Source of the DNA: a virus
Length of the DNA stretch: 64,000 nucleotides
Strand: one strand, 5' to 3'
IMG/VR virus record: IMGVR_UViG_3300049215_000529
Coordinates: 140,191 to 204,190 of that record
The stretch's first letter is position 1, and each line of letters opens with the position of its first letter. Shown here one piece after another: positions 8,699 through 60,529 of the stretch. The position numbers and the translations under genes were made by a program. The notes beneath the pieces were generated by a model. That model was not told the DNA's origin. It saw only the letters and a list, made by a program, of their open reading frames with translations, and did no database searches.

Positions 8699-9562
8699 AT
8701 GTCGCGACCAAAACGAATTATCACCGAGCAAGAAAAACAAAAAATTGTGGCAGACTACAAAGCTGGCGTATCACTCAAAAAATTGCAAAAAGAAACGAAG
8801 TTGCAGCAGAAGCAACTGAAATTCATTCTTGACCAATTTGATGTTCCAATTCTAACAGCATATGAAACGCAGAGACGAAAAGCGATGTTAGAAGAACGAA
8901 ACTATTTTGACGAGTTAGACGCGCTTCAATGCTATGTGTTAGGGTTGATATTCGGTGATGGATGCGTTCATTACAATCCTAAAAGATACAAATATGCTAC
9001 AACGATTGTTAGCAATGATATGGATATCTTAGAAAGTGCCAGACATTTATTAGGGACCAACTTTCCTATTACTAAGAGAAAGAAAGCCAAAGCTTATAAC
9101 CTTGTCATCAACTCCAAACATTTATGCCAAGAACTAATCAATAAGTTTCATCTACAAAGTCCCAAGAGTAGTAAATTGATTTTTCCTAACTTACCACAAG
9201 ATATGTATCAGTTCTTCGTTTCGGGACTGTTGAGCACCGATGGGTGTGTCAGAATTGACGACCGCAGAAAAAATCAATCATGTGGTATCGAGTTTTCCTA
9301 TTCTTCTAATTGTTTAGATTTCGTTCAAAAATTGCGTCATTATCTATCTAATACGCTTGATATCGCCGAAGATGGACATATCAAAACGATAAAGCGAAGT
9401 AAGAAACGAAAGAACCCCAACTACTCCTTGCGATACTCGGGAACCAATGCAACTAAGATATTAACTTGGATTTACGAAAATACCTCACCAATAACAAGAT
9501 GTCAAAGAAAATACGATATCTACCGTAATCATTTGGCTTGCGTTTCAAATTCTATAATATAG
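8699..9562 (+). CDS. LAGLIDADG-type homing endonuclease with N-terminal HTH
   Basis: 287 residues from the ATG at 8699, chosen over 8681 because GGAG lies six bases upstream. The N-terminus (TEQEKQKIVADYKAGVSLKK) looks like a helix-turn-helix. Then two LAGLIDADG-like segments occur: LGLIFGDGCVH (about 84-94) and SGLLSTDGCVR (about 174-184). It is on the plus strand against the local direction, and its end overlaps the PARP 3' end by 34 bases. It stops at TAG, rare in this window. A mobile, free-standing homing gene. Confidence 0.82.
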   Translation: MSRPKRIITEQEKQKIVADYKAGVSLKKLQKETKLQQKQLKFILDQFDVPILTAYETQRRKAMLEERNYFDELDALQCYVLGLIFGDGCVHYNPKRYKYATTIVSNDMDILESARHLLGTNFPITKRKKAKAYNLVINSKHLCQELINKFHLQSPKSSKLIFPNLPQDMYQFFVSGLLSTDGCVRIDDRRKNQSCGIEFSYSSNCLDFVQKLRHYLSNTLDIAEDGHIKTIKRSKKRKNPNYSLRYSGTNATKILTWIYENTSPITRCQRKYDIYRNHLACVSNSII

Positions 9563-11013
9563 CGGATACAATGTTGTTGTTCTGGTCCACTTGGCGTATA
9601 TGTAATCAATTCTTCATTATATAGTGACCCGCCTGTTTTAGCCCAAACACTATGTGCTGGGTTAATATTCTTCTTGGTATAGAAGTGAGACTGTTGCGTG
9701 ATCTTTTGATTTCCAAAAGCCACATCTGCTAAAAAGAGATATGCTGTTTTATTTGTTCCTTGAGCCCAGTAGCTACCTCTAACATCACAATAATTCATAC
9801 TCTTGGTAGAATTGGTTGCCCAGTAGATTCCATCCCCAAATGCAGACCCAGCATGGATAACGCCAGAAGGACGAATCAAAAGACCTTTGGTTGTGATACC
9901 AATCATGTTTGCACGACGAGTACCGTGCCATGCAGGAAGAACGTTTGCCTTCTTATAAAGGGCATCCATTTCTTTGGTAATGTCAATACGTTCTTTTACC
10001 CACTTAGCATATACTTCAGAAGGAGTGTATTTGCCACATTCCTTAGCAATCTTCTCGGAAGCTTCCATCCAATGCTTGTCTTCATCGTGACGAGCAACAC
10101 GGAAAACTTTATGAGTCTTTAGTTTGCCCAAGCCACCATGATTGCTTGCACGGGTACCATGTAGCATGTTATCAATCCACTTGAACACCGGATCGGAAGG
10201 ATCAACGTACTCCAAATCAGCTTTCAAAGTCGCATACTGCGAATCTACTGCGCTCTTCTTGGAGATAACTGCTTGAACGTTCTTTGCGTCAGCAAAGACG
10301 TCGAGAATGTCGAAAGCTTTATTGAGCTTATCGTCGTCGTCCAAACGTAATACGTCAGCATCAATCTTACGAGGGAGGACGTGAGGAATGTTAGAGTAGT
10401 ATTGGCTGGTAAGCTTATTCAACTCCTTGACGTCAGGCTTCTTGACGTGGATTTGCTTACGAGCTTCATCCAGAATTTGTTTGGCGAAATCAATTTGGGT
10501 TAACGACAATTGACCCAATGGACACTTGTTGGTATCAAGGTTCAATTCAACGAACTCTTGTGTAACGCCGAACCAAGTACGAACTAAGTCCTGCACTTGC
10601 GCATGAAGTTTACTAGCCGATTCGTCTTTCTCAGTGACAGTTGCGCCCAATCGTTTGAGAGCTTCCACAGAAACGGTAGAGTCTACTTTAGATTTACCCA
10701 TATCAGAGCCAACGTCAGCCTTAACCAACTTGACTTCAACATAGCCCTTTTTGGTTTTGGACTTGATAATCTTCTCGGCTTCTTTTTCGGCATCAGCCTT
10801 ATCTTCGCAGACACGATACTCTTTGGCGCCAGAAACACCAACACGCCCATACTGCGTATAGATATAGTACTTACCATCATTGGATTCAATCAACTCCAAG
10901 TTGTAATACTTGTTATTGTTATTGATGATGTCAGTAAAATTTAGAGTATAACGCTTAAAAACGTCTTTGATGGAAACTTGAAGTTCATCTTCTCTGATAA
11001 CAGGCTTAGCCAT
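9529..11013 (-). CDS. WGR-domain poly(ADP-ribose) polymerase-like ADP-ribosyltransferase
   Basis: 494 residues from MAKPVIRE (ATG at 11013). Domain order: a WGR-like domain (about 32-92, with YTQYGRVG), a helical PARP regulatory domain (about 130-265), then the catalytic domain. The H-Y-E triad is intact: HGTRRAN (His about 363), GDGIYWATNSTKSMNYC (Tyr about 397) and LYNEELITY (Glu about 467). This is the architecture of eukaryotic PARP2/3-like enzymes, which attach ADP-ribose from NAD+ to proteins or nucleic-acid ends, often at DNA breaks. The ATG overlaps the stop of the membrane gene upstream. Confidence 0.93.
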   Translation of the reverse strand: MAKPVIREDELQVSIKDVFKRYTLNFTDIINNNNKYYNLELIESNDGKYYIYTQYGRVGVSGAKEYRVCEDKADAEKEAEKIIKSKTKKGYVEVKLVKADVGSDMGKSKVDSTVSVEALKRLGATVTEKDESASKLHAQVQDLVRTWFGVTQEFVELNLDTNKCPLGQLSLTQIDFAKQILDEARKQIHVKKPDVKELNKLTSQYYSNIPHVLPRKIDADVLRLDDDDKLNKAFDILDVFADAKNVQAVISKKSAVDSQYATLKADLEYVDPSDPVFKWIDNMLHGTRASNHGGLGKLKTHKVFRVARHDEDKHWMEASEKIAKECGKYTPSEVYAKWVKERIDITKEMDALYKKANVLPAWHGTRRANMIGITTKGLLIRPSGVIHAGSAFGDGIYWATNSTKSMNYCDVRGSYWAQGTNKTAYLFLADVAFGNQKITQQSHFYTKKNINPAHSVWAKTGGSLYNEELITYTPSGPEQQHCIRYIIEFETQAK

Positions 11014-11377
11014 TTTTAACCTTGGTTCGTTTACGTGGTTGAGGTGCCTCAAGTGGAGGCTCGGGCTCTGACGCCAGTGGCGCCGTGAGCCTCGTCAAAA
11101 TCAAGTCCATTATAAGGCTGATCATGCCGCCAGCAAGACCCCAGCAAATTAATAAATTGAGGCTCCATATTTTTTCGTGCAATAAATAGACGAACCAACC
11201 ACAATGGAAACCAAGGCAGAAATAACAATCCAGTAATTTATAAAAGAATGTACCCACATGAGGGTTTTTAAAGAGTTCATTACGGGCTCTTGCCATCAAA
11301 CCCCAGGGACCGTCTGATTCTTTAATAAAGAAAGCTAGACCAAAAATGGCACCAACAACAATTATGAAATCCAACAT
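11006..11377 (-). CDS. membrane protein, DUF1360-like
   Basis: 123 residues. An N-terminal TM segment (IIVVGAIFGLAFF), a CYFCLGFHCGW motif (about 51-61) and another TM segment (LLICWGLAGGMISLIM) resemble DUF1360 proteins of phages and bacteria. The tail is Pro-rich and basic. Function unknown. It overlaps the PARP start by eight bases. Confidence 0.65.
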   Translation of the reverse strand: MLDFIIVVGAIFGLAFFIKESDGPWGLMARARNELFKNPHVGTFFYKLLDCYFCLGFHCGWFVYLLHEKIWSLNLLICWGLAGGMISLIMDLILTRLTAPLASEPEPPLEAPQPRKRTKVKNG

Positions 11378-11380
11378 TTA

Positions 11381-12034
11381 TTACACTCGATTCATGCAGT
11401 CAGTATAATCCAATACAGTGTCACCATATTGAACCTTTTGATACACATTAAAAGACTTCGCCGTGTATCCTCTGCCCTCTTGATCGCGAATAAAACTCCT
11501 CAATCGTGGAGAGGCTTTCATATCATACTTCTTCAATGCAACCAAAGATTTAGAAACACAAAGATACGGGTATGGATTGGGCTCGTAAACAATATCAAGA
11601 ACCCTTGATTCCATTGCTTTAGTAAAGCCTTTGTCCAAAATTGCTTTATCATCTAGGCAATAAGCAACAGCATCTACATTCAAGAAGACTGTCTGTGGAA
11701 TGGTCTCTAATTTTTTAGAGAATTTGGGATCATTTCCAAATGCCCAAGTAGAATCCAGATTCCAAATATCAAATTCAACCTTGTCAAGAGTTAACTTGTA
11801 GCCGCCAAAACGATTCTTTTTGGCTTTGTATTTAATCAAAGCATCTAAAGCCTGAGATGGACAGTCAACTACTACATCAATGTCACGAGGTTGATTACCA
11901 AAAGACCAATCTCTAACCGCACCACCGAAGACTGCTGCCTTCCCCCAACTCTTAACCTCTTCTAACAGCTGAGAAATTTTAGGATTCTCACAAAGCTTTA
12001 CCAAATTTGACTGAGTTGATTCTGCTAAATTCAT
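11381..12034 (-). CDS. nucleotidyltransferase of the CCA-adding/poly(A) polymerase type
   Basis: 217 residues. The head-domain motif GGAVRDWSFG..RDIDVVVD (about 36-53) supplies the two metal-binding aspartates of class II CCA-adding enzymes and poly(A) polymerases. The protein is much shorter than host CCA enzymes (about 400) and ends after a short helical part, so tail domains are missing. With many phage tRNAs here, one lacking encoded CCA (tRNA-Val GAC), CCA addition is plausible, but another NTP transfer role is possible. Confidence 0.75.
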   Translation of the reverse strand: MNLAESTQSNLVKLCENPKISQLLEEVKSWGKAAVFGGAVRDWSFGNQPRDIDVVVDCPSQALDALIKYKAKKNRFGGYKLTLDKVEFDIWNLDSTWAFGNDPKFSKKLETIPQTVFLNVDAVAYCLDDKAILDKGFTKAMESRVLDIVYEPNPYPYLCVSKSLVALKKYDMKASPRLRSFIRDQEGRGYTAKSFNVYQKVQYGDTVLDYTDCMNRV

Positions 12035-21324: not shown

Positions 21325-22425
21325 TTATTTTCCTGTTCCCAGGAATTTTTTAATGGATGGCAAGATTTCATTTCGGTTGTTAATTTCACTTAAAATCACC
21401 TTATCCTTTTGAGAAGTCCCAAGAAAGGAGGATTCTAATACTTTGAGGAAATTACCAGTTCCCGAATTAACCTGACCATAACAAAATAAATTGGAGTTAG
21501 GGATGATTTTCGACTCTAATAAAGAGACCGCAACTGCATCATCTGAATCTCCCCAATTGTCTCCGTCACTAAAGTGGAATGGATATACATTATATTCAGC
21601 AAATGGATATTCATTTTCCATCATAGTGGCACAGAATTTATACGCAGAAGAAATACTAGTACCACCTGATTCAGAGATAGTGAAAAACTGCTCACGATCT
21701 ACTTCTGATGCTACTGTATCATGGATAATGAATCGGGATTCAATATCCTTGTACTGATATTTCAGCCATAGATCAATCCAAAATACTTCAGATTTAACTA
21801 TGTGCTTTTGTTCGGCTCCCATTGAACCAGATACATCCATCATATAGATAACGACAGTATTGATATTTGGTTCTTCAATAGGAATAGCGGCACGATATCT
21901 CCTATCAGCCTTGATAGGAAACATCCCAGGTTTTCCTGGTTCATAAGTGCCAGAAGCGATATTTCGCTTCAGCATCTCTTTGTAGGTTCTTTTGAAGTGT
22001 TTGAGTCCTTCAGAACCTACCGTTCTAATTCCAGTATATTTGTTTTTACTGGAGGCAATTTTACCTTTGCCCTTCTCATCAACATTTGGAAGAGATAGTT
22101 CTTCGCTCAAAAGTTGAGCTAGTTCATCGGCAGTAAATTCGGCTTGATAGCCATGCTGACCCTCATCATTACCAGCCTTACCTTTTCCTTGACCAGGCTT
22201 GCCTTGACCGTCAATTGGATCACCGTCTTCACCTTCTCCTTGACCTGTACCACCACCATGACTGTGGGTAAAATGGGGCAGGTCAATACTATCAATTGGA
22301 ATTGAAACGCGCTTATTTCCCTGCTGTCCGATTAACTGATCGGAGCTTACATATTTGCCAAGGTTGTGCTTTACCTTATTTCGAACGATGTTTTTAAAAC
22401 GACCAACATCCTGATCTATTTTCAT
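21325..22425 (-). CDS. DUF444 (YeaH/YhbH-like) von Willebrand A protein
   Basis: 366 residues. N-terminal basic part, a Gly/Asp-rich linker (HGGGTGQGEGEDG...), then a VWA-like domain with MIDAS motif DVSGSMG (about 197-203) and a GGTSISSAY segment. In bacteria YeaH works with the kinase YeaG (PrkA) and SpoVR in stress responses. Neither partner is visible nearby, but a kinase/VWA pair sits at 52716-54678. Confidence 0.85.
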   Translation of the reverse strand: MKIDQDVGRFKNIVRNKVKHNLGKYVSSDQLIGQQGNKRVSIPIDSIDLPHFTHSHGGGTGQGEGEDGDPIDGQGKPGQGKGKAGNDEGQHGYQAEFTADELAQLLSEELSLPNVDEKGKGKIASSKNKYTGIRTVGSEGLKHFKRTYKEMLKRNIASGTYEPGKPGMFPIKADRRYRAAIPIEEPNINTVVIYMMDVSGSMGAEQKHIVKSEVFWIDLWLKYQYKDIESRFIIHDTVASEVDREQFFTISESGGTSISSAYKFCATMMENEYPFAEYNVYPFHFSDGDNWGDSDDAVAVSLLESKIIPNSNLFCYGQVNSGTGNFLKVLESSFLGTSQKDKVILSEINNRNEILPSIKKFLGTGK

Positions 22426-28864: not shown

Positions 28865-29779
28865 TTACCCTCTTGGAAAGAATGAAGAATCAGATCTGTT
28901 GAATAATTGACTGTCTAAAGCAATAAGCTTATCGAAGTCTTCTACCGCATAGAAAGCAGGATCAATGGCTTTCATGCCATATTTTGCGCCAAATAAGGCG
29001 CCGACAATAGCGGCAGTCGTGTCAGTATCTCCACCAGCCTTGATAGCAGTTACCACTGCATCATAGTAGTTATCAAACTTCAAGAAGCAATATAGTGCTG
29101 CTGGAACTGTTTCTTGAACGTTAGCCTTGGTACCAAGTACCTTGAGAGCTTGCCGTGGGCTAATGTGGTCAGAGCTAATCAAAGCATCTAAACTATAGAC
29201 AGTATTCTTTACCTTACTATCTGGCAAGTGAGCCCAAATCTTTTCTAACAAATTGTCAGAATCATCATTGACAGCGTAATAAGCTGCCACTGCAATAGCA
29301 ATCGAACCAGCCTCAGCATCTGGTGATACGTGGGTGATAGCACTATCAACTTTACAGATATCGACTAATGATTTGAGGTCATTGCGGAAATAGACTCCAA
29401 ATGGTGCGGAGCGCATAGCGGTACCATTGCCAAGAGAGCCAACAATACCAGATTCACTCCAATGTTTGCCAGAAGTCAAATTCTGAATTGCCATCAAGGT
29501 AGTTTTGCCCCAACCTCTAGCTCGACCAGAAGTCATCCAATCTACGTACCTAGCAGACAAATCGTCTGGATTGAAACCACGATTCTCAATTAGAGATTCG
29601 GCAACCATCAAACTCATTTGAGTATCATCTGAGTATTGTCCTGGTTGTAGCTTATGGTGTTCACTACCCAAGAAACTTTTGCCATCCCATTCCAATAAGG
29701 CTGGGTTGTTTATTAGCTTAGTTTCAAACGGAACGCCAAGTGCATCTGCAACAGCTGTTCCTAATAGTACGTTACTCAT
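28865..29779 (-). CDS. ADP-ribosylglycohydrolase (DraG family), copy 1
   Basis: 304 residues. DraG signatures: ADALGVPFE (about 10-18), YSDDTQMSL (metal-binding Asp pair, about 48-56), GNGTAMRSAP, HVSPDAE and GGDTDTTAAIVGA near the end. DraG-type enzymes remove ADP-ribose from Arg or other acceptors. It overlaps the DUF6939-like gene by eight bases and lies in one run with nadV, so it is linked to NAD metabolism. A second copy is at 59477-60418. Confidence 0.92.
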   Translation of the reverse strand: MSNVLLGTAVADALGVPFETKLINNPALLEWDGKSFLGSEHHKLQPGQYSDDTQMSLMVAESLIENRGFNPDDLSARYVDWMTSGRARGWGKTTLMAIQNLTSGKHWSESGIVGSLGNGTAMRSAPFGVYFRNDLKSLVDICKVDSAITHVSPDAEAGSIAIAVAAYYAVNDDSDNLLEKIWAHLPDSKVKNTVYSLDALISSDHISPRQALKVLGTKANVQETVPAALYCFLKFDNYYDAVVTAIKAGGDTDTTAAIVGALFGAKYGMKAIDPAFYAVEDFDKLIALDSQLFNRSDSSFFPRG

Positions 29780-30341: not shown

Positions 30342-30516
30342 AAATATCCTTCCAAAATCATACACAAAGCAAATGCTTGTCCTACTGGGCGGTCAGGATC
30401 ATTAACCACCTGATCCCAGGATTTCTCTAGGTAACGATGATTATATCCTTCAAAATCGATCAAGTAACACAAGTATGTTTGTATGTCCAATTGCTAATAT
30501 CTTGTTTTTTAAGCAC
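30338..30516 (-). pseudogene. short DUF6939-like C-terminal paralogue, frameshifted
   Basis: Starts GTG overlapping the nadV stop (VLKKQDISNWTYKHT), then the frame breaks. One frame over it continues LIDFEGYNHRYLEKSWDQ and ends CMILEGYL. That end matches the DFDAHN...VNNPNLKVGHAYVLAMLLEG end of the next gene. One extra T in a TT run would restore about 60 codons. Either a small duplicate or a decayed gene. Its TGA overlaps the ATG of the intact relative. Confidence 0.55.
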
Positions 30517-31909
30517 CTTCATGACGAACTCTCTTTCTAATTTCTTCGAAATTATCGTCCACCAAAATCTCACCATTCTCATATACCGTCTTCATAACAG
30601 TGCGTTTATGAGAAACCTCATCTTCAAACAAAGGAACGGTTTCATAACCGCCGCGTTCATTGAAGCACAAATCCAAACGTCCTGCTTTGCTTGCCTTGCC
30701 CTTGTCAGTCACTGGATCTTTGAATACATCCACCGATTTGTCTCCGATGAAAATATGGCTGCACTTCATAGCAAATTTTTCAGTATCACGGTTGAGTTGT
30801 TGTAGCAAAGCGCCACCCATACCAAAAGCAATGTTCGTGGCACTGTAACCATTGTCCATCAAAGTGTCTAGGATCAGCTGGATAGACCTTTCATTGATGC
30901 CGTCGCCCTGAATGATACGGACATTTTTCAAGACCTTATAGCCCCTCTTGTTAATGGTCGTTCCAAACTTTTCTTCCAATAGTTTAACGGTCTTTAGCAC
31001 TACCGTAGGAGGATGACCAGAGTCGGGGCGAATGATGACCACTGCACCAGAATCAATCACTTCCTGCTTCAACTGATCACCCCACAAGTGAGAACAAGCA
31101 TTCCACAAGTCGTAAGAGTCCGATACACAGGCAACCAAGGCGCCCGGCTTAGCGAATTGCTTTAGCATATTACGATATGCTTCAACTTCATTTTCTTTGC
31201 CCCAAGAAGTAATGGAGCTATGTTCTGCTGCCGGAATGCTGAATCCAGCCATTGGAATATTGTAGTACTCATTGGCACATAACACTCCCACAACCGTATC
31301 ACTTCCCATAAAATTGACCAAGTGGGCTGCGCCACCAATCATAGCAGACTCTTGGCTACTAACTCCACGCGAGCCAAAGTCATGAAGCTTAAAGCTGATT
31401 TCTGCTTGCGGATCATCCGAAGATGCTTGCAATGCACGCAAAATAATACCACGAATTGTACGACTGCGGCTAGCTACCGTGATAGGATACCAAACCCTAA
31501 GCAACATGGTTTCAATCCAAGAAACAATCCAAAACACTTTCGGATCAGTAGATTCAATACTGACAAGAATATTATGGGTTGGAACCACAGTTCCTTCTGG
31601 TACGGCGCGAATACGAATGGGGAGCTTGCCTTTCAAATCTTTGGCAATGTACATCCAGCCGTCATAGTTGAATGGCTCGCCATGTGCCGCAAAGAGTACC
31701 TTGGCTTTCTCAACCTCTTCTACTGTAACTCGATGAGTCAAATATTCCTTCAAGTAGTATTGCAATCCAAAGAAAACAGTTTCACTGTATTCTCCGCCTC
31801 GGCTTTCGATGTAGGAGAACATACTTGTGGTACCAGGAGGATACTGCAAGTAGTGGGAAACTTTGTAGCTGTCTGTATCAAACAAGTAACTAAAACGATT
31901 GGTTTTCAT
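30509..31909 (-). CDS. nadV: nicotinamide phosphoribosyltransferase
   Basis: 466 residues, full length for NadV/NAMPT. Starts in the typical DSYKVSHYLQYPPG, then SYIESRGG, HDFGSRGVSSQESA, a MAGFSIPAAEHS segment, RPDSGHPP (about 292-299) and a C-terminal GMGGALLQQLNRDT. It makes NMN from nicotinamide and PRPP. Together with the NMN adenylyltransferase upstream it rebuilds NAD+ from nicotinamide, the product left by NAD-degrading defence enzymes. The leader carries two small hairpins (see findings). Confidence 0.97.
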   Translation of the reverse strand: MKTNRFSYLFDTDSYKVSHYLQYPPGTTSMFSYIESRGGEYSETVFFGLQYYLKEYLTHRVTVEEVEKAKVLFAAHGEPFNYDGWMYIAKDLKGKLPIRIRAVPEGTVVPTHNILVSIESTDPKVFWIVSWIETMLLRVWYPITVASRSRTIRGIILRALQASSDDPQAEISFKLHDFGSRGVSSQESAMIGGAAHLVNFMGSDTVVGVLCANEYYNIPMAGFSIPAAEHSSITSWGKENEVEAYRNMLKQFAKPGALVACVSDSYDLWNACSHLWGDQLKQEVIDSGAVVIIRPDSGHPPTVVLKTVKLLEEKFGTTINKRGYKVLKNVRIIQGDGINERSIQLILDTLMDNGYSATNIAFGMGGALLQQLNRDTEKFAMKCSHIFIGDKSVDVFKDPVTDKGKASKAGRLDLCFNERGGYETVPLFEDEVSHKRTVMKTVYENGEILVDDNFEEIRKRVRHEGA

Positions 31910-31910
31910 T

Positions 31911-31951
31911 ATACTCTCCGTATGTTTGCCATTCGTTCTCTCAGTGAGAAC
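31911..31951 (-). promoter_or_regulatory. paired leader hairpins before nadV
   Basis: In RNA sense: GTTCTC-ACTGA-GAGAAC (31935-31951), then ATAC-GGAGA-GTAT (31911-31923), whose loop is the Shine-Dalgarno sequence. Loops match the pattern R-N-(T/A)-G-A found in seven of eight leader hairpins in this block, with different stems. Confidence 0.55.
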
Positions 31952-31956
31952 TTGGC

Positions 31957-32970
31957 TCAGAACTTGGAAACAAAATACTTTATTATATGGTAGTGGTCCT
32001 CGAAAAATTCATTCTCCATCGAATGAAATTCGCCCAAAGGTAACCAAAACGCTCTCTCTGCATCGTCAGCTCCTTTTACTTGAGGGAGTGGACCTATCCC
32101 CAAATCAATTAGGTATGCATTAGTAATAGTACGACCGCGAGCAGAACGCAAGGGGTCATCAAATACTTTAAAGTCGGCTATCGATTTTTTTAAATCTGGA
32201 GTATTAATTTTGATACCGGTTTCCTCTTTTAATTCTCTGAGGGCGGCGTCTTGCAATTTCTCTTTTTGATTGACGAAACCACCAGGCAGAGCCAGCAAAC
32301 CCTTACCAGGATTAGACCTTCTAGTCACAATCAATACGTGACCAGACTTCACAACTATTGTATCAACAGTTACAAATATGGGTGGAAATGGGGCTCCTCG
32401 CCATTGTTCTTTGTAATTGTCTATAAAATACTTTTCTTGCTTTATGTTCACGAATTCTTTGGTTTGCTTAAAATTTTCTAAATATTCAGCAACACCATTT
32501 GGTACCATTGTTTTGTAAGATGCGTTATGTGAAAAATATAAATCTCTAACTTGGGTGGCATGAAAATTATATTCTGTCCCGCATTGAATATATTTATATT
32601 GGGGAAAAAGTTTCAAATAATATGATGATTCATCACTTTCGTATCCTATTAGGGATACTTTTTCGGAATAATCCGTGGCTTCACTCACTTTTTGTTGAAG
32701 TGTTGATATCCACAAATTATCATTGTAAGTATAATCCTTCATTGAAATAAATATCACTCTATCTTTTTCTTCCGAAGAGAGACACCGCCTAATCATTTCT
32801 TGACGCTCATCGCCAGACCACGGATTTCTTATGGTGCGGGGCGAACCACAACTTCCCACCACCACAATCACCTTTTCTGCTATGGTAAGAGCTTTGTCCA
32901 AAATAAATTTGTGAGCTTTCTGAAGGGGAGAAAAACGCCCAATGAATACACAAAAATCAAATTTTTCCAT
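31957..32970 (-). CDS. bifunctional NMN adenylyltransferase / Nudix hydrolase
   Basis: 337 residues from MEKFDFCVFIGRF, chosen because a GCGAGG site precedes it. N-terminal half: nucleotidyltransferase with GRFSPLQKAHKFILDK (HxGH-like) and VIFISMKDY region, forming NAD+ from NMN and ATP. C-terminal half: Nudix box GGFVNQKEKLQDAALRELKEETG (split: G5xE...REL.EETG), likely an ADP-ribose or NADH pyrophosphatase. Same layout as cyanobacterial NadM-Nudix proteins. Pairs with nadV in a nicotinamide-to-NAD+ route. Confidence 0.94.
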   Translation of the reverse strand: MEKFDFCVFIGRFSPLQKAHKFILDKALTIAEKVIVVVGSCGSPRTIRNPWSGDERQEMIRRCLSSEEKDRVIFISMKDYTYNDNLWISTLQQKVSEATDYSEKVSLIGYESDESSYYLKLFPQYKYIQCGTEYNFHATQVRDLYFSHNASYKTMVPNGVAEYLENFKQTKEFVNIKQEKYFIDNYKEQWRGAPFPPIFVTVDTIVVKSGHVLIVTRRSNPGKGLLALPGGFVNQKEKLQDAALRELKEETGIKINTPDLKKSIADFKVFDDPLRSARGRTITNAYLIDLGIGPLPQVKGADDAERAFWLPLGEFHSMENEFFEDHYHIIKYFVSKF

Positions 32971-32979
32971 ATTAACCTC

Positions 32980-33019
32980 GCTCTTCTTTAGAGCATGCAT
33001 TCGTCCTCTCAATGAGAAC
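32980..33019 (-). promoter_or_regulatory. paired leader hairpins before nadM-Nudix
   Basis: RNA sense: GTTCTC-ATTGA-GAGGAC (33003-33019; the G-U pair preserves the stem) and GCTCT-AAAGA-AGAGC (32980-32994) just before the ribosome site. The first shares AAGTTCTCA.TGAGAG.ACGAATG with the nadV leader. Confidence 0.55.
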
Positions 33020-33025
33020 TTGCAT

Positions 33026-33790
33026 TCAAACATATATCACGATATTAGTAGCACAATTGGTTTGAAATTTAATAAGTTGGTCTATCCATTTTACCCACGC
33101 CGAATATGACATATCTAATTTGGCACGATTACAGACCCAGCAACAAGTTACACAATTCTGTATGGTATAATCGCTATTGCTATCCAACCTATCTATGCCA
33201 TTATAATTAAATATGATTGTGTTATCGGTTCTTTTAATAACTACAGTTTTATTGGGAGATACGCCACAATAATGGCAATCTTTAGATATTAGAGATGAGA
33301 ATTCATCATACGATAATTTCCACTCAATATTTCTGCGCTTAGCATTTCTTTTATATGAATTCAAAATTCTTTTGGTTGCTCTATCATCTTCTGATAATAA
33401 ACCAATTGTTGAGTTTTTATTTTGAGCACGCTTGCATCCGCAACTTTTTGATGCACCAGCGATTAAGTTTTTCGAAGGAATATAACAAATTGTTCCACAA
33501 ATACATTTGCATTCCCATATAATTGAGCCATTATTCGATCTTTCATCAGTGATTTTCAATACTGACAAAAATCCAAATCTCATTCCCAAAAGACATGAAT
33601 AATCTGCAAAACATACTCTTTTTCCACAAGAGCGGGAGCGACCTGTTACCAAGTCGGCTGTTCTAATTGATTTTTCAAAACCACAAATACATCTAACTAA
33701 GGTGCGAGATTTTGGCTTATTTATTTCGATTACTGTCCAAGAACCAAATTGATCATTACAAAAAACATGATATTTAGATTTTAAAGGCAT
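33026..33790 (-). CDS. HNH endonuclease with zinc-finger/AP2-like N-terminus
   Basis: 254 residues. N-terminal repeats with paired Cys (VRCICGFEKSI, WECKCICGT, KSCGCKRAQN) are typical of phage HNH/AP2-type homing nucleases. HNH core: CHYCGVSPN, then GIDRLDSNSDYTIQNCVTCCWVCN. Its 3' end carries the likely nadM promoter (CGTGATATATG). Confidence 0.85.
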   Translation of the reverse strand: MPLKSKYHVFCNDQFGSWTVIEINKPKSRTLVRCICGFEKSIRTADLVTGRSRSCGKRVCFADYSCLLGMRFGFLSVLKITDERSNNGSIIWECKCICGTICYIPSKNLIAGASKSCGCKRAQNKNSTIGLLSEDDRATKRILNSYKRNAKRRNIEWKLSYDEFSSLISKDCHYCGVSPNKTVVIKRTDNTIIFNYNGIDRLDSNSDYTIQNCVTCCWVCNRAKLDMSYSAWVKWIDQLIKFQTNCATNIVIYV

Positions 33791-43473: not shown

Positions 43474-44331
43474 TTATGCACCAACTTGGCAACGGATAAA
43501 TCCAACTACTTGAATGTCTCCGCCCAGTTTGGCGCTCATATTTTTCACGACCTGTTGAACTGAAGTCTTAGGCTGAACCACTGACTCCTGCTCTAACAAA
43601 CAGACTTCAGTATGCCACTTCTTGAACTTTCCTTCTAAAATCTTTGCCCAAGCAGCCTGAGGTTTGTTCATTTCCTTCAGTTGCGCTTCAAAGATTCCCC
43701 TTTGTCTTTCAACTACCTCGGCTGGTAAAGAGTCAACAGAAACTGCAACTGAACTCATGGCTGCCACTTGCATTGCTAATTCCTCTCCAAGAGTTTTGAA
43801 ATCTTCAGTATTAGCCGCCTCTACCGAGGGAGCTACCATGGAAAGCAAGACACCAATCTTATTATTGGAGTGTATGTAGTGACACACTCTGCCAGCCTCT
43901 GGCATCACTTGCTCAACCCACCAACGACGAATGACAATGTTCTCTTTAGTTTTAGAGATTAAGTCCTTTCGTGCATTTTCCAAGACGTCGCAATCATGAT
44001 AGAATGGATTAGACTGAGCTACATCGGATCCAAGTTGGAAAGATACTAGATCCACAAACTTATTAAAGTCAGGACTATTAGCAACAAAATCAGTCTGGCA
44101 ATTGACCTCGACCATACTCTTGGTTCGATTATCTCCAACATGACCAATGCGAACAATACCTTCCGTAGCAACATTATTGCTGGTGCGGGAGACTACATTA
44201 AGACCTTTGATCTTTACGATATCCACTGCCTTTTGCAAGTCCCATGCGGCTTCTTCGAGGGCATCTTTGCAGTCCTTCATGCCAGCTTGAGTAAGTGCTC
44301 GTAACTCTTTGATCAGATCAGTGTTGTTCAT
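43474..44331 (-). CDS. tsf: translation elongation factor Ts
   Basis: 285 residues from MNNTDLIKEL, matching bacterial EF-Ts length. N-terminal UBA-like domain with LRALTQAGMKDCKDAL, then the core TDFVANSPDF (about 81-90) and GVLLSMVAPS, IAMQVAA-like EELAMQVAAMS. EF-Ts recharges EF-Tu with GTP. The N-terminal half is closest; the C-terminus is diverged. It suggests the phage supports translation late in infection. Confidence 0.92.
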   Translation of the reverse strand: MNNTDLIKELRALTQAGMKDCKDALEEAAWDLQKAVDIVKIKGLNVVSRTSNNVATEGIVRIGHVGDNRTKSMVEVNCQTDFVANSPDFNKFVDLVSFQLGSDVAQSNPFYHDCDVLENARKDLISKTKENIVIRRWWVEQVMPEAGRVCHYIHSNNKIGVLLSMVAPSVEAANTEDFKTLGEELAMQVAAMSSVAVSVDSLPAEVVERQRGIFEAQLKEMNKPQAAWAKILEGKFKKWHTEVCLLEQESVVQPKTSVQQVVKNMSAKLGGDIQVVGFIRCQVGA

Positions 44332-44347
44332 AGTAATACCTTTGCGC

Positions 44348-44375
44348 AAAGTAAATCTTAAAAATTGTAAGTCAA
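44348..44375 (-). promoter_or_regulatory. sigma70-like promoter of tsf
   Basis: Minus strand TTGACT (44370-44375), 16-base spacer, TACTTT (44348-44353). A GCCGCC/GGCGGC inverted repeat lies immediately upstream of the -35 box. Confidence 0.5.
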
Positions 44376-51792: not shown

Positions 51793-52719
51793 TCACAACT
51801 CTCGCTTGACACCATCAAAAACGGCTACTGCCGTGGCTAATAGGTTTTCTTTAAGACAAAGCTCGTCACATAGTAGCATGCGACGGAAGCCAATATCATT
51901 TAGCCAAGCAATCTCAATTAGGTCGGCACACGATGGAACTGGGCTATCAATGACTGAAAGCAAGATGCGAGACCCAACACAAGCCTCGGGGTCTGCTTTA
52001 ATAATTGCACGCAAAGCATGAATCATATGGTGTGGTTTGTCAAGCTCAACGAACAAATCTCCACGAGCTGCCACCAAAACCAGGTTGTCTTTCTTCTTAA
52101 ATGTGTTGATGGCATACTTCATGCCAGCAAGGCTTTCAATCTTCAACCAGACCTCAGCATCACGACCAACCAGTTCCAAAAACTGATCCACATCACTTTG
52201 CTGCTCCACATAAGACAGATAGTATTTGTTGAAGCCCGCTGCACGAACCTTCTCAATCTTCTGAATCTCTTGGGGAGTAAAGATGTTTCCTCGAACTTCT
52301 AGGCTCTTATCTCTAATGTGTAGTGACTCTCCAGCAATTACATTGTATCGTGGTCCACCCTCGAAGATAAGCCTTTGACCATCCTCTTCTAGGCGATCCA
52401 ATAAGGCTACGTCAGCCCCAGCCTTGAACAAGACTACGCTAGGCGTCTTAACACTGATAGGATGATTGAGTCTGATATCTAAGTAATCTTTATTAGGGAT
52501 TACCTCAGTTACCCTCAATTGACGTCCTTTAACGTCAAAGAAGAGGGGATTAGAGCTAGTCATGCCTTTAACAATCTCTAGCTCTTTATCCAGCTCAGGA
52601 TTGCTCATCATAGCACTATTGAGTCGAATACCATCCACTCGGCTATCATGAGCAAAACGTTTAAAGTGTGGAAAGCTTGGCCATAATGTAACTGATAGTT
52701 CTGGAACTTTATTTTTCAT
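51793..52719 (-). CDS. pyruvate-kinase-like TIM-barrel protein
   Basis: 308 residues. Similar to the pyruvate kinase barrel: DVKGRQLRV (like DTKGPEIR), GNIFTPQEIQKIEKVRAAGFN (split), VWLKIESLAGM (catalytic KIE), LVAARGDLFVEL (metal/phosphate loop) and MLLCDELCL. The C-terminal regulatory domain is missing. Whether it catalyses the PEP/ADP reaction is uncertain. It overlaps the VWA gene by four bases, hence in an operon with the kinase. Confidence 0.72.
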   Translation of the reverse strand: MKNKVPELSVTLWPSFPHFKRFAHDSRVDGIRLNSAMMSNPELDKELEIVKGMTSSNPLFFDVKGRQLRVTEVIPNKDYLDIRLNHPISVKTPSVVLFKAGADVALLDRLEEDGQRLIFEGGPRYNVIAGESLHIRDKSLEVRGNIFTPQEIQKIEKVRAAGFNKYYLSYVEQQSDVDQFLELVGRDAEVWLKIESLAGMKYAINTFKKKDNLVLVAARGDLFVELDKPHHMIHALRAIIKADPEACVGSRILLSVIDSPVPSCADLIEIAWLNDIGFRRMLLCDELCLKENLLATAVAVFDGVKREL

Positions 52720-53666
52720 GGCAGTAATCGCTTAGTTTTGCTACCTTTCATATGAGTATGTAATACTGATTTGCCACCACTGTCAGTAACCTTAGCAGGA
52801 ATAGCGTGGATGGTCTTAAGAGCCTTGTAAACTGTATCTACTTGGTCTTCACGTTGACGTTCTTCAATTTCTTCCTTGAAGTAATGAACCTTGTTCTTCT
52901 CTTGCGCCAAGATGCCGAAGATGACGTCTACCACTCGATCAGCCGAAGGAAGGATGGCGATGTGCTCTTTGCCCACCAAGTCTTCCCACTTCTTCTGAAT
53001 ATACTTATCATCACCAGAGTCATAAGGTTTGCGGATCAAATAGACCGAAAACTTTTCCTTCAACTCCTTGAAGATGTCTTTGGTAGAAATATCATTGCCT
53101 TCTAACTTGACTTGAGCTAGAGCGGCATGTTTCTTGATGACGTGATCATAATAACCTTCATCACCAATGATAATCATAATAGGACGTTTTGCATTAGGCA
53201 TTTCAGCATTACGAGCATAGTATAAGGCTGTTAGCTCATAGCTCTCATGGCACTGACCACCACCGTTGCCTTCGATGACTAGCTCCTTGAGTTGCTTCTC
53301 CATATCACGACCTTTAGCAAAAGGACGAACTTGAATTGGATATTGATCAGAGTTAGCATCACCAACTGCACCAAAGCTTAGCTCAAAGTTCTCTCCCAAA
53401 TACTCCTTACACTCATTATCCATATAAGGAAGCTTGGAAAACATAACGGCTGGCCAATCTCCCATTGAACCAGTTACGTCAACTAAAATTACTAGAGGAG
53501 CTTCACTCTCAGTCTTAATAGAGGCTGGAACTAAGTCCGCTGTCCTCTTGTTGTCTGCCTTTGCGTCGCTATAGCTGCGCCCTACATGCTTATCGTAGGA
53601 CTTACGAGCTGCGTCGAAGTCATAACCTTTCCAATCGCCGGGACTATAATTTGATGATTCTGACAT
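52716..53666 (-). CDS. von Willebrand factor A domain protein
   Basis: 316 residues. MIDAS motif DVTGSMGDW (about 62-70); GGQCHESYELTALYYA (about 133-148) and IIIGDEGYYD follow. A Lys-rich C-terminal end. It lies between a Ser/Thr kinase and a pyruvate-kinase-like gene, with an AACAGGAGAA site. The layout recalls bacterial VWA-kinase signalling clusters. Confidence 0.82.
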   Translation of the reverse strand: MSESSNYSPGDWKGYDFDAARKSYDKHVGRSYSDAKADNKRTADLVPASIKTESEAPLVILVDVTGSMGDWPAVMFSKLPYMDNECKEYLGENFELSFGAVGDANSDQYPIQVRPFAKGRDMEKQLKELVIEGNGGGQCHESYELTALYYARNAEMPNAKRPIMIIIGDEGYYDHVIKKHAALAQVKLEGNDISTKDIFKELKEKFSVYLIRKPYDSGDDKYIQKKWEDLVGKEHIAILPSADRVVDVIFGILAQEKNKVHYFKEEIEERQREDQVDTVYKALKTIHAIPAKVTDSGGKSVLHTHMKGSKTKRLLP

Positions 53667-53679
53667 GATAATTCTCCTG

Positions 53680-54678
53680 TTAACTATTAAACCCTGGGAT
53701 ATTCTTCATTCCTGAACGGGAACGACCGAAAGACTTGTGGCGAACTTCAACGAACTCATCGAAGAGATCGCGTTGCGGTCTTTGTAAGATATCCTTCTTT
53801 GTAATCTTCTGAATGAAATCGCACATGGGATCAGGCACGTTAGATGGTACCTCTTTTTTATCCATACGCTTACCACCATTGAGGGCATATACCATTAGCA
53901 TTCCGAGGCTATAGTAATCGCTCGCTGGTAATAAAGCCTTGCCATCAATTTGCTCGGGGGAGGCAAATACTGGTGTGTATCCTAGTGACTTGTCCGAACT
54001 TCCTGGCTTAACCATTGCTAAACCGAAGTCTACCAAAACTACTGAGTGGGTATCAGGTTGAATGATAACGTTCTGTGGCTTGATATCTCCATGAATAACA
54101 CCATGGTGATGAAGGTAAAGTAGAGCATTAAGGATTCGCTCAACGATCCATGCTGTGCTCTCTGGCTCAATCTTTCCAGCCTTCTCTACAATCTGTTCCA
54201 AGGTAGGACCCTTGATGTAGCTCATAATGAGTGCCAAGCTACCATCATCTAGTCTCTGAAGGTCACGCATTACTGGAAGCGCGTAGTGACGCAAATCCCA
54301 GATGGATTTCATCTCTTGGATGAGAATCTTGTCATGAGCGGCTGATACCATGGAACAGTGCTTGATGCATACTGGATCCTTGGTGATAACATGCTCTCCC
54401 TTGTAGGTAACACCGAAACCACCCTCAGCAATGTCTTCTAGAACCTTATAGTTCCCAATGACAGTTCCACCTTTAGGGTTCTTGGTCTTGTCATATTGCT
54501 TACGCTTGACGGTATCCGAGAGCAATTCGTAAGCTTCGTTCAATTCTTGGGCTTGTTCTTTGGTGCCGCCATGGTCTGGATGATGTTTCTTCATCAGAGC
54601 TTGGTAGGCGGCTTTAATAACTAATTGACTAGCCCTAGAACTAACTTCTAGCGTTTTATACGGATCAAAATCAATCAT
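53680..54678 (-). CDS. J-domain/Ser-Thr protein kinase fusion
   Basis: 332 residues from MIDFDPYK; the earlier ATG falls in the promoter -10 box. N-terminal J-domain with HPD (KKHHPDHGGT, about 28-37) and YDKTKN. Then a Ser/Thr kinase: GGFGVTYKGE (P-loop), the Lys in VCIKHC, HGDIKPQN (catalytic loop) and DFGLA. J-domains recruit Hsp70; fused kinases of this kind are unusual. It probably phosphorylates host proteins, perhaps chaperone-linked. Confidence 0.9.
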   Translation of the reverse strand: MIDFDPYKTLEVSSRASQLVIKAAYQALMKKHHPDHGGTKEQAQELNEAYELLSDTVKRKQYDKTKNPKGGTVIGNYKVLEDIAEGGFGVTYKGEHVITKDPVCIKHCSMVSAAHDKILIQEMKSIWDLRHYALPVMRDLQRLDDGSLALIMSYIKGPTLEQIVEKAGKIEPESTAWIVERILNALLYLHHHGVIHGDIKPQNVIIQPDTHSVVLVDFGLAMVKPGSSDKSLGYTPVFASPEQIDGKALLPASDYYSLGMLMVYALNGGKRMDKKEVPSNVPDPMCDFIQKITKKDILQRPQRDLFDEFVEVRHKSFGRSRSGMKNIPGFNS

Positions 54679-54700
54679 GAATAAATCTATCTTAGTACTC

Positions 54701-54729
54701 AATGTAACCATTTAGAGGGCTCGTGTCAA
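54701..54729 (-). promoter_or_regulatory. sigma70-like promoter of kinase-VWA operon
   Basis: Minus strand TTGACA (54724-54729), 17-base spacer, TACATT (54701-54706), about 23 bases before the kinase ATG. GGCGCC precedes the -35 box. Confidence 0.7.
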
Positions 54730-55437
54730 GTGGCGCCCATTATTTCGTCCCATCTTGCCTCAATTATGTCAGTATAAATCAAACTGTTCAAACCATAATT
54801 GCCTAATGCAAAAGCATCATTCACTTCCACTAATAAAGAACGTCCCTTGTCATCAACACCAAAATCAATGGAATAGGCGACTGGGGCGCCCTTATAAGCG
54901 GCGATAGCCTGTTTGATGACCGCCACGTCAGGCACCAAGCCAAAGTCGCCCTTATAGTGTTTTAAGCCCACTAAATCGCCTCGTAGGACGAATCCTCGAT
55001 ACTCTGTTACGAATTCAACGGGCTCGGAGATTTGAATCTCCATATCCATTTTCTGAGATGAGGTTTTGATTAAATCTCGGAACTGGGACACCACATGACC
55101 AACAAATTGCTTCTGAATGTAGCGCGGCTTAATGAAGACAGGCTTAACATCATAGTCTTGCTGGTGAATCTCTGCCAGAGTTCCATACCTAATATGCCTT
55201 CCACAGAAGGGTGATAGCTAGCCTATCAAATACTTTCCTTACAATAGGGATGTAACCACAAACGATATCGTCTTTGGTTAAGGGAATGTTGTCTAATTCT
55301 TCGGATTCAAACTCACCTTCAAAGAAAAGAGTTTGATATCCTTTCAATCGGAAACCTTCCCAGGCATAGTAAGTATTGGTGGTAATCAGCTCGCCATTCT
55401 TCTTTTGGCAATAAACTTTCCTCATGCTGATATACAA
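54726..55437 (-). pseudogene. ATP-grasp (DUF4343-like) protein, one-base frameshift
   Basis: The first frame codes MRKVYCQKKNGELIT...KVFDRLAIT; then one base over, RYGTLAEIHQQDYDVKPVFI, ...DMEIQISEPVEFVTEYRGFV and VNDAFALGNYG. These are consecutive pieces of the ATP-grasp/DUF4343 family. The shift is at ACCC near 55207; one C fewer restores the frame. Either broken or a +1 slip or a sequencing error. Confidence 0.65.
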
Positions 55438-59138: not shown

Positions 59139-59230
59139 TGGCGGAAAAGGAAGGATTCGAACCTTCGGACCACCGTTAGGCGGTCTCTTGTTTTAGAGAC
59201 AAGCGGTATAATCCACTCACCCACATTTCC
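59139..59230 (-). tRNA. amber-suppressor tRNA, Ser-type (anticodon CTA)
   Basis: Acceptor GGAAATG/CTTTTCC (one mismatch), anticodon stem CTTGT-CTCTAAA-ACAAG with anticodon CTA (reads UAG), long variable arm (ACCGCC-TAAC-GGTGGT), T-loop TTCGAAT, discriminator G, encoded CCA. Long arm plus G73 indicate charging by SerRS, which ignores the anticodon. Confidence 0.9.
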
Positions 59231-59475: not shown

Positions 59476-59500
59476 ATTATATCTCGATATTGATAAGTTC
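59476..59500 (-). promoter_or_regulatory. tRNA promoter block (TATAAT)
   Basis: Minus strand TATCAATATCGAGATATAAT followed by ACATAC; -10 TATAAT (59476-59481), 11 bases before tRNA-Ser. Shares 19 of 20 bases with the block at 61467-61491. Confidence 0.55.
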
Positions 59501-60418
59501 GTCAGTCAAATCCTGCAATAATTCGAAGTTTTCAACGCTCTTATACTCTTCTGGAATGCCCTCTAAACCATACAGCGTGCCAGCCATAGCGCCCACTATA
59601 GCAGCCGTTGTGTCCGTATCGCCTCCACCCTTGACTGCCATCACAACACAATCTTTAAAATTATCTGTGGCGGCGAGACAATAGAAAGCGGCGGCTACCG
59701 TCTCAGGAACATAACCCCTGGTCCCGATTTCGGCAAGTGCCTCTTCTGCCGGAACCTCATCTTTCCAAAGTTCATATGCCAATTTCAATTTGGCAACAAC
59801 AATACAATCGTTAACCGAAAGGACATTAATCACTCCCGGAAGAACTCCAAGAGATGAATGTTTGACTGCTGGAACATCTCCCATAGCCAATAAAGCAGTT
59901 CCCAATGCAACTGCAATGGATCCCATTTTAGGTTCATCCGAATTGTGAGTAATGGAAGCATCTTCCACTGCAACCGACAATAGCTTGCTTAAATCATGAC
60001 GATAAGCCAAACCAATTGGTGAAGCTCTCATTGCAGTACCATTGCCACCAACAGGAGTGCCATCATTGTTAAGTGATAATCCACTTTCCAAGTAAGACAT
60101 TCCGTTCTTGATATTATGAAGAGCAGCCGCAGTAGTCCCACCAATACCTCGGGTATTACCAGACTCCATCCAAGCCAAATATCTCTGAGCAACGTCCTCA
60201 GCATTGAAGCCATTGTGTTCTACTAGGCTAGTTGCCAATGCAATACTCATTAGGGTATCGTCGGTGTATTGACCTGGTTCACCAACCCAAAACGTACCAC
60301 CAGCTTGGAACTGCCCATCCCAAGCAACTAGCTTTGGATTGTCAGCAGGCTTTGTTTCAAATGGGTTACCAAGGGCATCACCAATGGCGCAACCAACTAA
60401 TGTAGCAATCTTCTTCAT
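59477..60418 (-). CDS. ADP-ribosylglycohydrolase (DraG family), copy 2
   Basis: 313 residues from MKKIATLVGC. CAIGDALGNPFETKP, YTDDTLMSIAL, GNGTAMRASP, THNSDEPKMGS and GGGDTDTTAAIVGAM match DraG. About a third of positions resemble copy 1, so an old duplication or separate gain. The earlier start lies in a tRNA-Ser. Removes ADP-ribose; the target is unknown. Confidence 0.9.
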   Translation of the reverse strand: MKKIATLVGCAIGDALGNPFETKPADNPKLVAWDGQFQAGGTFWVGEPGQYTDDTLMSIALATSLVEHNGFNAEDVAQRYLAWMESGNTRGIGGTTAAALHNIKNGMSYLESGLSLNNDGTPVGGNGTAMRASPIGLAYRHDLSKLLSVAVEDASITHNSDEPKMGSIAVALGTALLAMGDVPAVKHSSLGVLPGVINVLSVNDCIVVAKLKLAYELWKDEVPAEEALAEIGTRGYVPETVAAAFYCLAATDNFKDCVVMAVKGGGDTDTTAAIVGAMAGTLYGLEGIPEEYKSVENFELLQDLTDELINIEI

Positions 60419-60438
60419 TGAATACCTAATAAAATAAC

Positions 60439-60529
60439 TGGAGGAAGTAGTAGGATTCGAACCCACGGAAGGCTATTAACCCCCTTTCGCTTTCAAGGCG
60501 AACGCGATAAACCACTCTGCCATACTTCC
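60439..60529 (-). tRNA. tRNA-Ser (anticodon TGA)
   Basis: Acceptor GGAAGTA/TACTTCC, loop CTTGAAA, anticodon TGA, long variable arm, encoded CCA, discriminator T (not the usual G). Confidence 0.88.

Follow-up and report, generated by a model that had tools for sequence, protein, structure and literature searches.

A 64,000-nucleotide window of viral DNA, bases 140191-204190 of the 204,190-base IMG/VR virus record IMGVR_UViG_3300049215_000529, encodes a J-domain Ser/Thr protein kinase, a VWA protein and a pyruvate-kinase-like protein (PKL) in three adjacent genes, a triad that is real and conserved and that, so far as the searches reached, has not been described before. A plausible, if tentative, interpretation is that the three genes constitute a kinase- and chaperone-controlled module acting on the supply of nucleotides or nicotinamide adenine dinucleotide (NAD), common to phages and cellular genomes.

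Gene layout and selection

The three open reading frames (ORFs) all lie on the minus strand in the order kinase (53680..54678, 332 residues from the conserved start), VWA (52716..53666, 316 residues) and PKL (51793..52719, 308 residues). The VWA stop and the PKL start overlap by four bases (52716..52719), as a preliminary description of this DNA had reported, and the overlap probably couples translation of the two genes. When the window was compared with three relatives, values for nonsynonymous change (pN) were 0.09-0.24 against near-saturated values for synonymous change (pS) of 0.72-0.85, and the three genes are therefore real and under purifying selection. The preliminary description had also placed the whole operon under one consensus-like promoter. 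A sigma-70-like match (TTGACA-17-TACATT, 10/12) does exist at 54701..54729 on the minus strand, but it is weak evidence because the region is rich in such sites (18 versus 10.7 +/- 3.7 in shuffles), and a single shared promoter was rejected.

Recurrence of the triad in viruses and cells

Relatives were found by tblastn and by degenerate-pattern scans. All 11 distinct viral PKL lineages that remained after duplicate removal (the window, L002, L003, L008, L009, L010, L011, L013, L014, L018 and L019) encode kinase, VWA and PKL in the same order, with the kinase of L008 sitting two small ORFs upstream. The triad of L002 is 80-85% identical to that of the window, and the 485-kb uncultured phage LR745208.1 has the whole triad in the same order at 41-45% identity, its PKL lying on a divergent branch (98/98 support). 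Failure of these genes to co-occur in other phages had been named as a reason to abandon the operon; instead, every PKL phage identified has all three of them together. In L022 (6001-6787), which counts as a twelfth viral kinase lineage, the kinase is intact, the VWA ORF is interrupted and there is no PKL next to it.

The triad also occurs in the same order in genomes of Patescibacteria and DPANN archaea. PKL is encoded in metagenome-assembled genomes of Patescibacteria and Woesearchaeota, where its neighbours, as read from sequence, look chromosomal (ligA/gatA-like genes in L098, ruvA-/ileS-like genes in L096). Samples of two phyla contained the VWA family in 6/380 genomes (the phylum of genome G003) and 8/279 genomes (that of G004). 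Viral and cellular branches interleave in the PKL tree, the deepest branches being cellular and several forks being open. The tree appears to require several changes between viruses and cells, with one origin and the direction of transfer unsettled; a single viral origin of PKL was thus not upheld, though the open forks temper that result.

A pyruvate kinase fold with a diverged site

PKL matches the NCBIfam model pyruv_kin at 3.6e-7, with scores below the curated cut-offs (20.8 versus 30 bits for Pfam, 29 versus 306 for NCBIfam). Its AlphaFold2 model has a predicted local distance difference test (pLDDT) score of 91, and all 50 PDB matches listed by Foldseek are pyruvate kinases, with template-modelling (TM) scores of ~0.7-0.8. 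The protein comprises the complete A and B domains of the pyruvate kinase fold, a barrel with an inserted B domain, and the C domain is absent. It was thus rightly recognized at the outset as a pyruvate kinase homologue, and the word "truncated" then applied to it holds only for the missing C domain.

In comparison with genuine pyruvate kinases, and in rabbit M1 numbering, residues R73, N75, D113, R120, K270, E272, A293 and D296 are kept in all 21 PKL proteins, and T328 is replaced by Ser and Q329 by Arg in the same 21/21. The phosphoenolpyruvate (PEP) and metal catalytic residues of pyruvate kinase are all kept except for the conservative T328S change; the K+-site residues S77 and T114 are not kept. 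The universal T328S and Q329R substitutions, together with a DxKGRQxR signature, mark PKL as a distinct subfamily. In L002, an EF-G-like gene (8884-11028, by sequence) lies directly downstream of PKL.

The VWA protein and its alternative partner

The VWA protein matches phrog_2971 (2.3e-27) and has no strong Pfam match; it gave no PADLOC match and no relevant NCBIfam match (none to VWA/TerY). The residues of its metal-ion-dependent adhesion site (MIDAS), D63-x-T65-G66-S67 and D169, are invariant, and in the DVTGS motif (residues 63-67, 53466..53480, minus strand) D63, T65, G66 and S67 are invariant in alignments A1, A5 and A7. Its AlphaFold2 model (pLDDT 85) finds its best PDB matches in Foldseek among integrin beta VWA/I-like domains, and the DxTxS...D pattern, seen throughout as DxTGS...D, combined with this predicted fold, bears out the initial assignment to MIDAS-containing VWA proteins. 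A second VWA-like protein, with a DVSGSM motif, is encoded in the window at 21325-22425 and belongs to the DUF444 family (5.5e-81).

Relatives of the VWA protein numbered 162 in one IMG/VR scan, and another search gave 207 phage records. Gene neighbours were counted at 73 distinct viral loci, drawn from 80 kept of the 162 relatives. A PurA-like gene, of the adenylosuccinate synthetase family, lies just downstream of VWA at 56/73 loci with no kinase counted and at a further 9/73 with a kinase homologue upstream, and is thus coupled to VWA at 65/73 loci overall; PKL and the kinase accompany VWA at 5/73, and neither PurA-like nor PKL is present at 3/73. Approximately 190 mycobacteriophages match both kinase and VWA, and the PurA-like gene follows in both of the two that were inspected, Bixzunavirus mycobacteriophages being a cultured example with a J-domain kinase homologue, VWA and PurA-like protein. 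The gene combination had been thought new: the kinase-VWA-barrel triad is indeed unusual, but the kinase-VWA pair within it is not unique. Both enzymes occur together in some Patescibacteria: L173 and L174 have four-gene kinase-VWA-PKL-PurA operons, and in L169 a VWA-PurA set is followed directly by a kinase-VWA-PKL set.

One PurA-like member matches PF00709 at 7e-70. Across 72 distinct PurA-like proteins, in E. coli numbering, catalytic D13 and H41 are kept, N38 is replaced by Gln in 71/72 and T301 by Gln in 71/72, and the amino-acid-binding loop is shortened; the proteins form a coherent, divergent subfamily. The phage pair of VWA (phrog_2971) and PurA-like protein is very widespread (L004, L005, L023-L095), and a protein of ~200 residues with no known function often precedes it. 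No PurA-like gene was found elsewhere in the window's record, and of six PKL phage records just one, that of the L018 phage, has such a gene, ~74 kb off and not beside the triad.

An intact kinase with PKL, a degenerate one with PurA

Pfam profile searches identified a DnaJ domain (3e-16) and a Pkinase domain (6e-35) in the kinase, confirming the fusion proposed earlier. The J-domain, with its HPD motif, covers 54490..54666 (PF00226, residues 16-74) and the protein kinase catalytic domain 53842..54450 (PF00069, residues 88-290), both on the minus strand and numbered in a 343-residue ORF that spans 53680-54711. An alternative ATG lies at 54711, but relatives start at the residue encoded from 54678 (MIDFDPYKTLEV / MSSFDPYKTLEI / MKDIDPYKTL), which favours that start. 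HPD within the DnaJ domain identifies a J-domain protein, and the VAIK-type Lys, HGDIKPQN and DFG are present in a complete Hanks-type Ser/Thr kinase catalytic set (Lys, Glu, HxD, DFG). Only DnaJ and kinase-type domains were found with Pfam, and neither a zinc ribbon nor an OB fold at the C terminus.

In 26/26 PKL-linked lineages without PurA, counting L022, the kinase has its Lys, Glu, HxD and DFG-type residues intact, with the exception that L165 has Gln for Asn203. All PurA-linked kinases, in contrast, have lost at least one key catalytic residue (~15 lineages after near-duplicates were merged, four-gene operons included). HPD is kept in every viral J-domain examined, including those on the degenerate kinases, so what phages retain is the J-domain, even where the kinase itself appears to be dead; several cellular copies have a degenerate J-domain or none. 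Searches of three phage records for a gene encoding an HSP70 partner found none. An R2K-type ATP-grasp gene (54726-55437, minus strand) immediately upstream of the kinase looks split across two frames, its C-terminal part lying at 54726-55094 and an apparent N-terminal part at 55189-55437, and its counterpart in L002 is an uninterrupted 252-residue ORF at 11218-11976.

NAD and ADP-ribose context

All seven loci of one archaeal subfamily (L131 and L162-L167) have NAD-related neighbours, in most cases making up a NAD-salvage operon. NadE, Nudix and NMNAT genes lie directly upstream of kinase-VWA-PKL in L131, L162, L163, L164 and L167; in some of these five loci, nicotinamidase-like and NAPRT genes precede that group, and ADP-ribosylglycohydrolase or NAD-kinase-like genes lie downstream. 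In L166 NMNAT is upstream, and L165, which is near a contig edge, has PRPP synthetase and an NAD-kinase-like gene downstream. NMNAT and nicotinamidase-like genes also surround the four-gene operon of L174. Profile matches were strong for NadE in L131 and L163 and for NAPRT in L163, and fell below curated cut-offs for NMNAT in L131, L162, L163 and L174 and for nicotinamidase in L163, L164, L167 and L174; NAD kinase was profiled in L164, and the remaining genes of these loci were named by resemblance to profiled members. In L132, a Ham1-type nucleotide pyrophosphatase adjoins PKL.

The window's phage carries its own NAD/ADP-ribose set, consisting of a WGR-PARP, two ADP-ribosylglycohydrolases, NAMPT and an NMNAT-Nudix fusion (9529-11052, 28865-29779, 30509-33033, 59477-60466). 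NAMPT (30509..31909, PF18127 and PF04095) and NMNAT-Nudix (31957..33033, PF01467 and PF00293) are NAD salvage genes on the minus strand. One ADP-ribosylglycohydrolase (59477..60466, minus strand, PF03747 at 6.6e-71) lies 6.8 kb from PKL and is a possible functional neighbour of the triad. Six phage records, representing three lineages, have such a gene at a distance of 4.4-7.3 kb from PKL, and LR745208.1 has one nearby. By presence, ADP-ribosylglycohydrolase occurs in 7/12 PKL records (one of which duplicates the window's genome) versus 3/24 PurA records, a one-sided Fisher value of 0.007 that is uncorrected for relatedness. NAMPT/NAPRT was not supported as a marker specific to PKL phages, PurA phages being similar (6/12 versus 10/24), and only its proximity is informative. 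Where VWA-PurA phages have a NAPRT-family gene, 6/10 carry it no more than 8 kb from VWA (expected 0.9, P = 7e-5), a limit picked after inspection of the data.

Further genes of the window

Among 17 tRNA genes, ARAGORN identified one with a CUA anticodon (tRNA-Pyl type, 59139-59230), a possible amber suppressor. The window also encodes an EF-Ts-like protein (43474-44349, by sequence) and an isocitrate lyase family protein (376-1608, PF00463 at 2.2e-102).

Proposed function and alternatives

A more specific form of the interpretation is offered with somewhat greater reserve. The genes may represent an undescribed NAD+/purine nucleotide control system of large phages, Patescibacteria and DPANN archaea, in which a constant VWA adaptor and a J-domain (pseudo)kinase would govern an exchangeable enzyme (a divergent pyruvate kinase or a divergent adenylosuccinate synthetase) whose part would be to produce or sense a metabolite derived from nucleotides, and with which phages would hold their nucleotide or NAD pools during infection. 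In the interpretation given at the outset, the VWA protein would be the constant, Mg-dependent adaptor that keeps the complex or its client in place, and the kinase would recruit host DnaK through its J-domain and phosphorylate VWA, PKL or a client enzyme. PKL would act on a nucleotide-type substrate, either by transferring a phosphoryl group from PEP or by enolisation. In the infected cell, nucleotide or NAD pools would thereby be kept up alongside the activities of the phage's NAMPT, NMNAT-Nudix, PARP and ADP-ribosylglycohydrolases.

The observed basis of this proposal is the conserved gene order, the intact residues of the kinase, J-domain, MIDAS and PEP site, and the repeated linkage of the family to genes of NAD and purine-nucleotide metabolism; complex formation, the substrate and the effect in infection are inferred. 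Several observations weigh against it. Classical pyruvate kinase activity of PKL is uncertain, as the protein has no C domain and has not kept the K+-site residues. The window's NAMPT is ~20 kb from the triad. The closest cellular relatives of the window genes (L096-L100 and L161) are not within NAD operons, so the NAD link, strong for one archaeal branch, is indirect for the window. The proximity limits were picked after inspection of the data, and the phages are not independent.

That PKL and the PurA-like protein are ligand sensors, with little or no real catalysis, through which the kinase-VWA complex would be informed of PEP or nucleotide levels, appears unlikely. The altered active sites (T328S and Q329R in PKL, the amino-acid loop changed in 71/72 PurA-like proteins), the exchangeable third gene and the loss of kinase residues where PurA is present would all fit a sensor, but PKL strictly keeps its catalytic Lys, Glu, Asp and Arg, which is unusual for a pure sensor, and the PurA-like protein keeps D13 and H41.

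We consider it unlikely that the triad is a conflict module resembling TerY-P, that is, a kinase-VWA phosphorylation switch that serves in defence or counter-defence or excludes rival phages and has PKL as its metabolic effector. TerY-P, which combines VWA, PP2C and kinase, is antiphage (PMC11090510) and active against T7-like phages (PMC7699616). PP2C adjoins the kinase in L098 and is encoded elsewhere in two PKL phages, but PP2C (PF13672) had no match in the window's 204-kb record, which may be incomplete. In PADLOC the kinase is most similar to mad6 and PD-T4-6, and its matches there cover the generic kinase domain only. The kinase's lack of a zinc ribbon or OB fold and the VWA protein's lack of a PADLOC match also argue against such a module, as do surroundings of nucleotide and NAD genes rather than restriction or ter genes.

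It is quite unlikely that PKL is a plain auxiliary metabolic gene, a working pyruvate kinase making ATP or other NTPs for the phage, with the kinase and VWA merely regulating or folding it. The conserved PEP and metal sites and the complete A and B domain fold favour a working enzyme, and the J-domain could aid its folding via DnaK. The universal substitutions and signature nonetheless set PKL apart, normal-length pyruvate kinases are already present in many Patescibacteria and in archaeon G004, and the replacement of PKL by a PurA-like protein beside the same VWA family would be left unexplained. Phage genomes are mosaic, but a chance meeting of unrelated neighbours in one phage is scarcely credible and was rejected, the order being conserved in unrelated genomes, both in a huge phage at 41-45% identity and in cells.

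The control system proposed here would give a role to a VWA family that is common in phages and annotated as hypothetical, yet in the viral loci examined stands nearly always beside one of two divergent nucleotide enzymes. If correct, it would tie NAD metabolism to the phosphorylation of proteins and the recruitment of chaperones, both in phages and in ultra-small bacteria and archaea that are still little understood. The split between an active kinase with PKL and a pseudokinase with PurA leads to clear predictions, testable in culturable Bixzunavirus and Mycobacterium smegmatis.

Comparison with known systems

Neither the triad nor VWA-PurA was found described in the open-access literature, most subscription journals lying outside the coverage. 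TerY-P consists of a TerY-like VWA, PP2C and a kinase with a C-terminal zinc ribbon, with an OB fold in the stand-alone antiphage form (PMC11090510); other kinase-PP2C-VWA sets and a DnaJ fusion occur in different systems (PMC7159879). The triad resembles TerY-P in its adjoining kinase and MIDAS VWA genes, PP2C standing beside the kinase in the relative L098 only. It differs in that its kinase carries a J-domain at the N terminus and lacks a zinc ribbon or OB fold at the C terminus, its VWA protein is phrog_2971 (set apart by profile matches rather than direct comparison with TerY sequences) and its third gene encodes a pyruvate-kinase-like enzyme. Membership of TerY-P was therefore rejected, there being no TerY-like VWA, operon PP2C or zinc-ribbon/OB kinase. 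The tellurite or stress connection suggested in the preliminary description is not supported, and the genomic context points to purine-nucleotide and NAD metabolism instead. The triad may still work like a kinase-VWA switch.

NARP1 and NARP2 are phage NAD-replenishing counter-defence systems (PMC11984713). The window's phage likewise carries NAD salvage genes, NAMPT and NMNAT-Nudix, and the module's relatives are NAD-linked, but the triad proteins are not among the NARP1 enzymes named in the literature consulted (Adps, Namat). Genuine pyruvate kinases share with PKL the A and B domains, the PEP and metal catalytic residues and TM scores of ~0.7-0.8, and differ in having a C domain, T328, Q329 and an unaltered K+ site, PKL scoring below the Pfam and NCBIfam cut-offs. 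LR745208.1 is alike in all three genes, their order and the nearby ADP-ribosylglycohydrolase, and differs in its divergent PKL branch. The Bixzunavirus (C1 mycobacteriophage) cluster has adjacent J-domain kinase and VWA homologues in the same order with a nucleotide enzyme next, but its proteins are only ~25-30% identical, its kinase is without the catalytic Asp and DFG, and its third enzyme is PurA-like.

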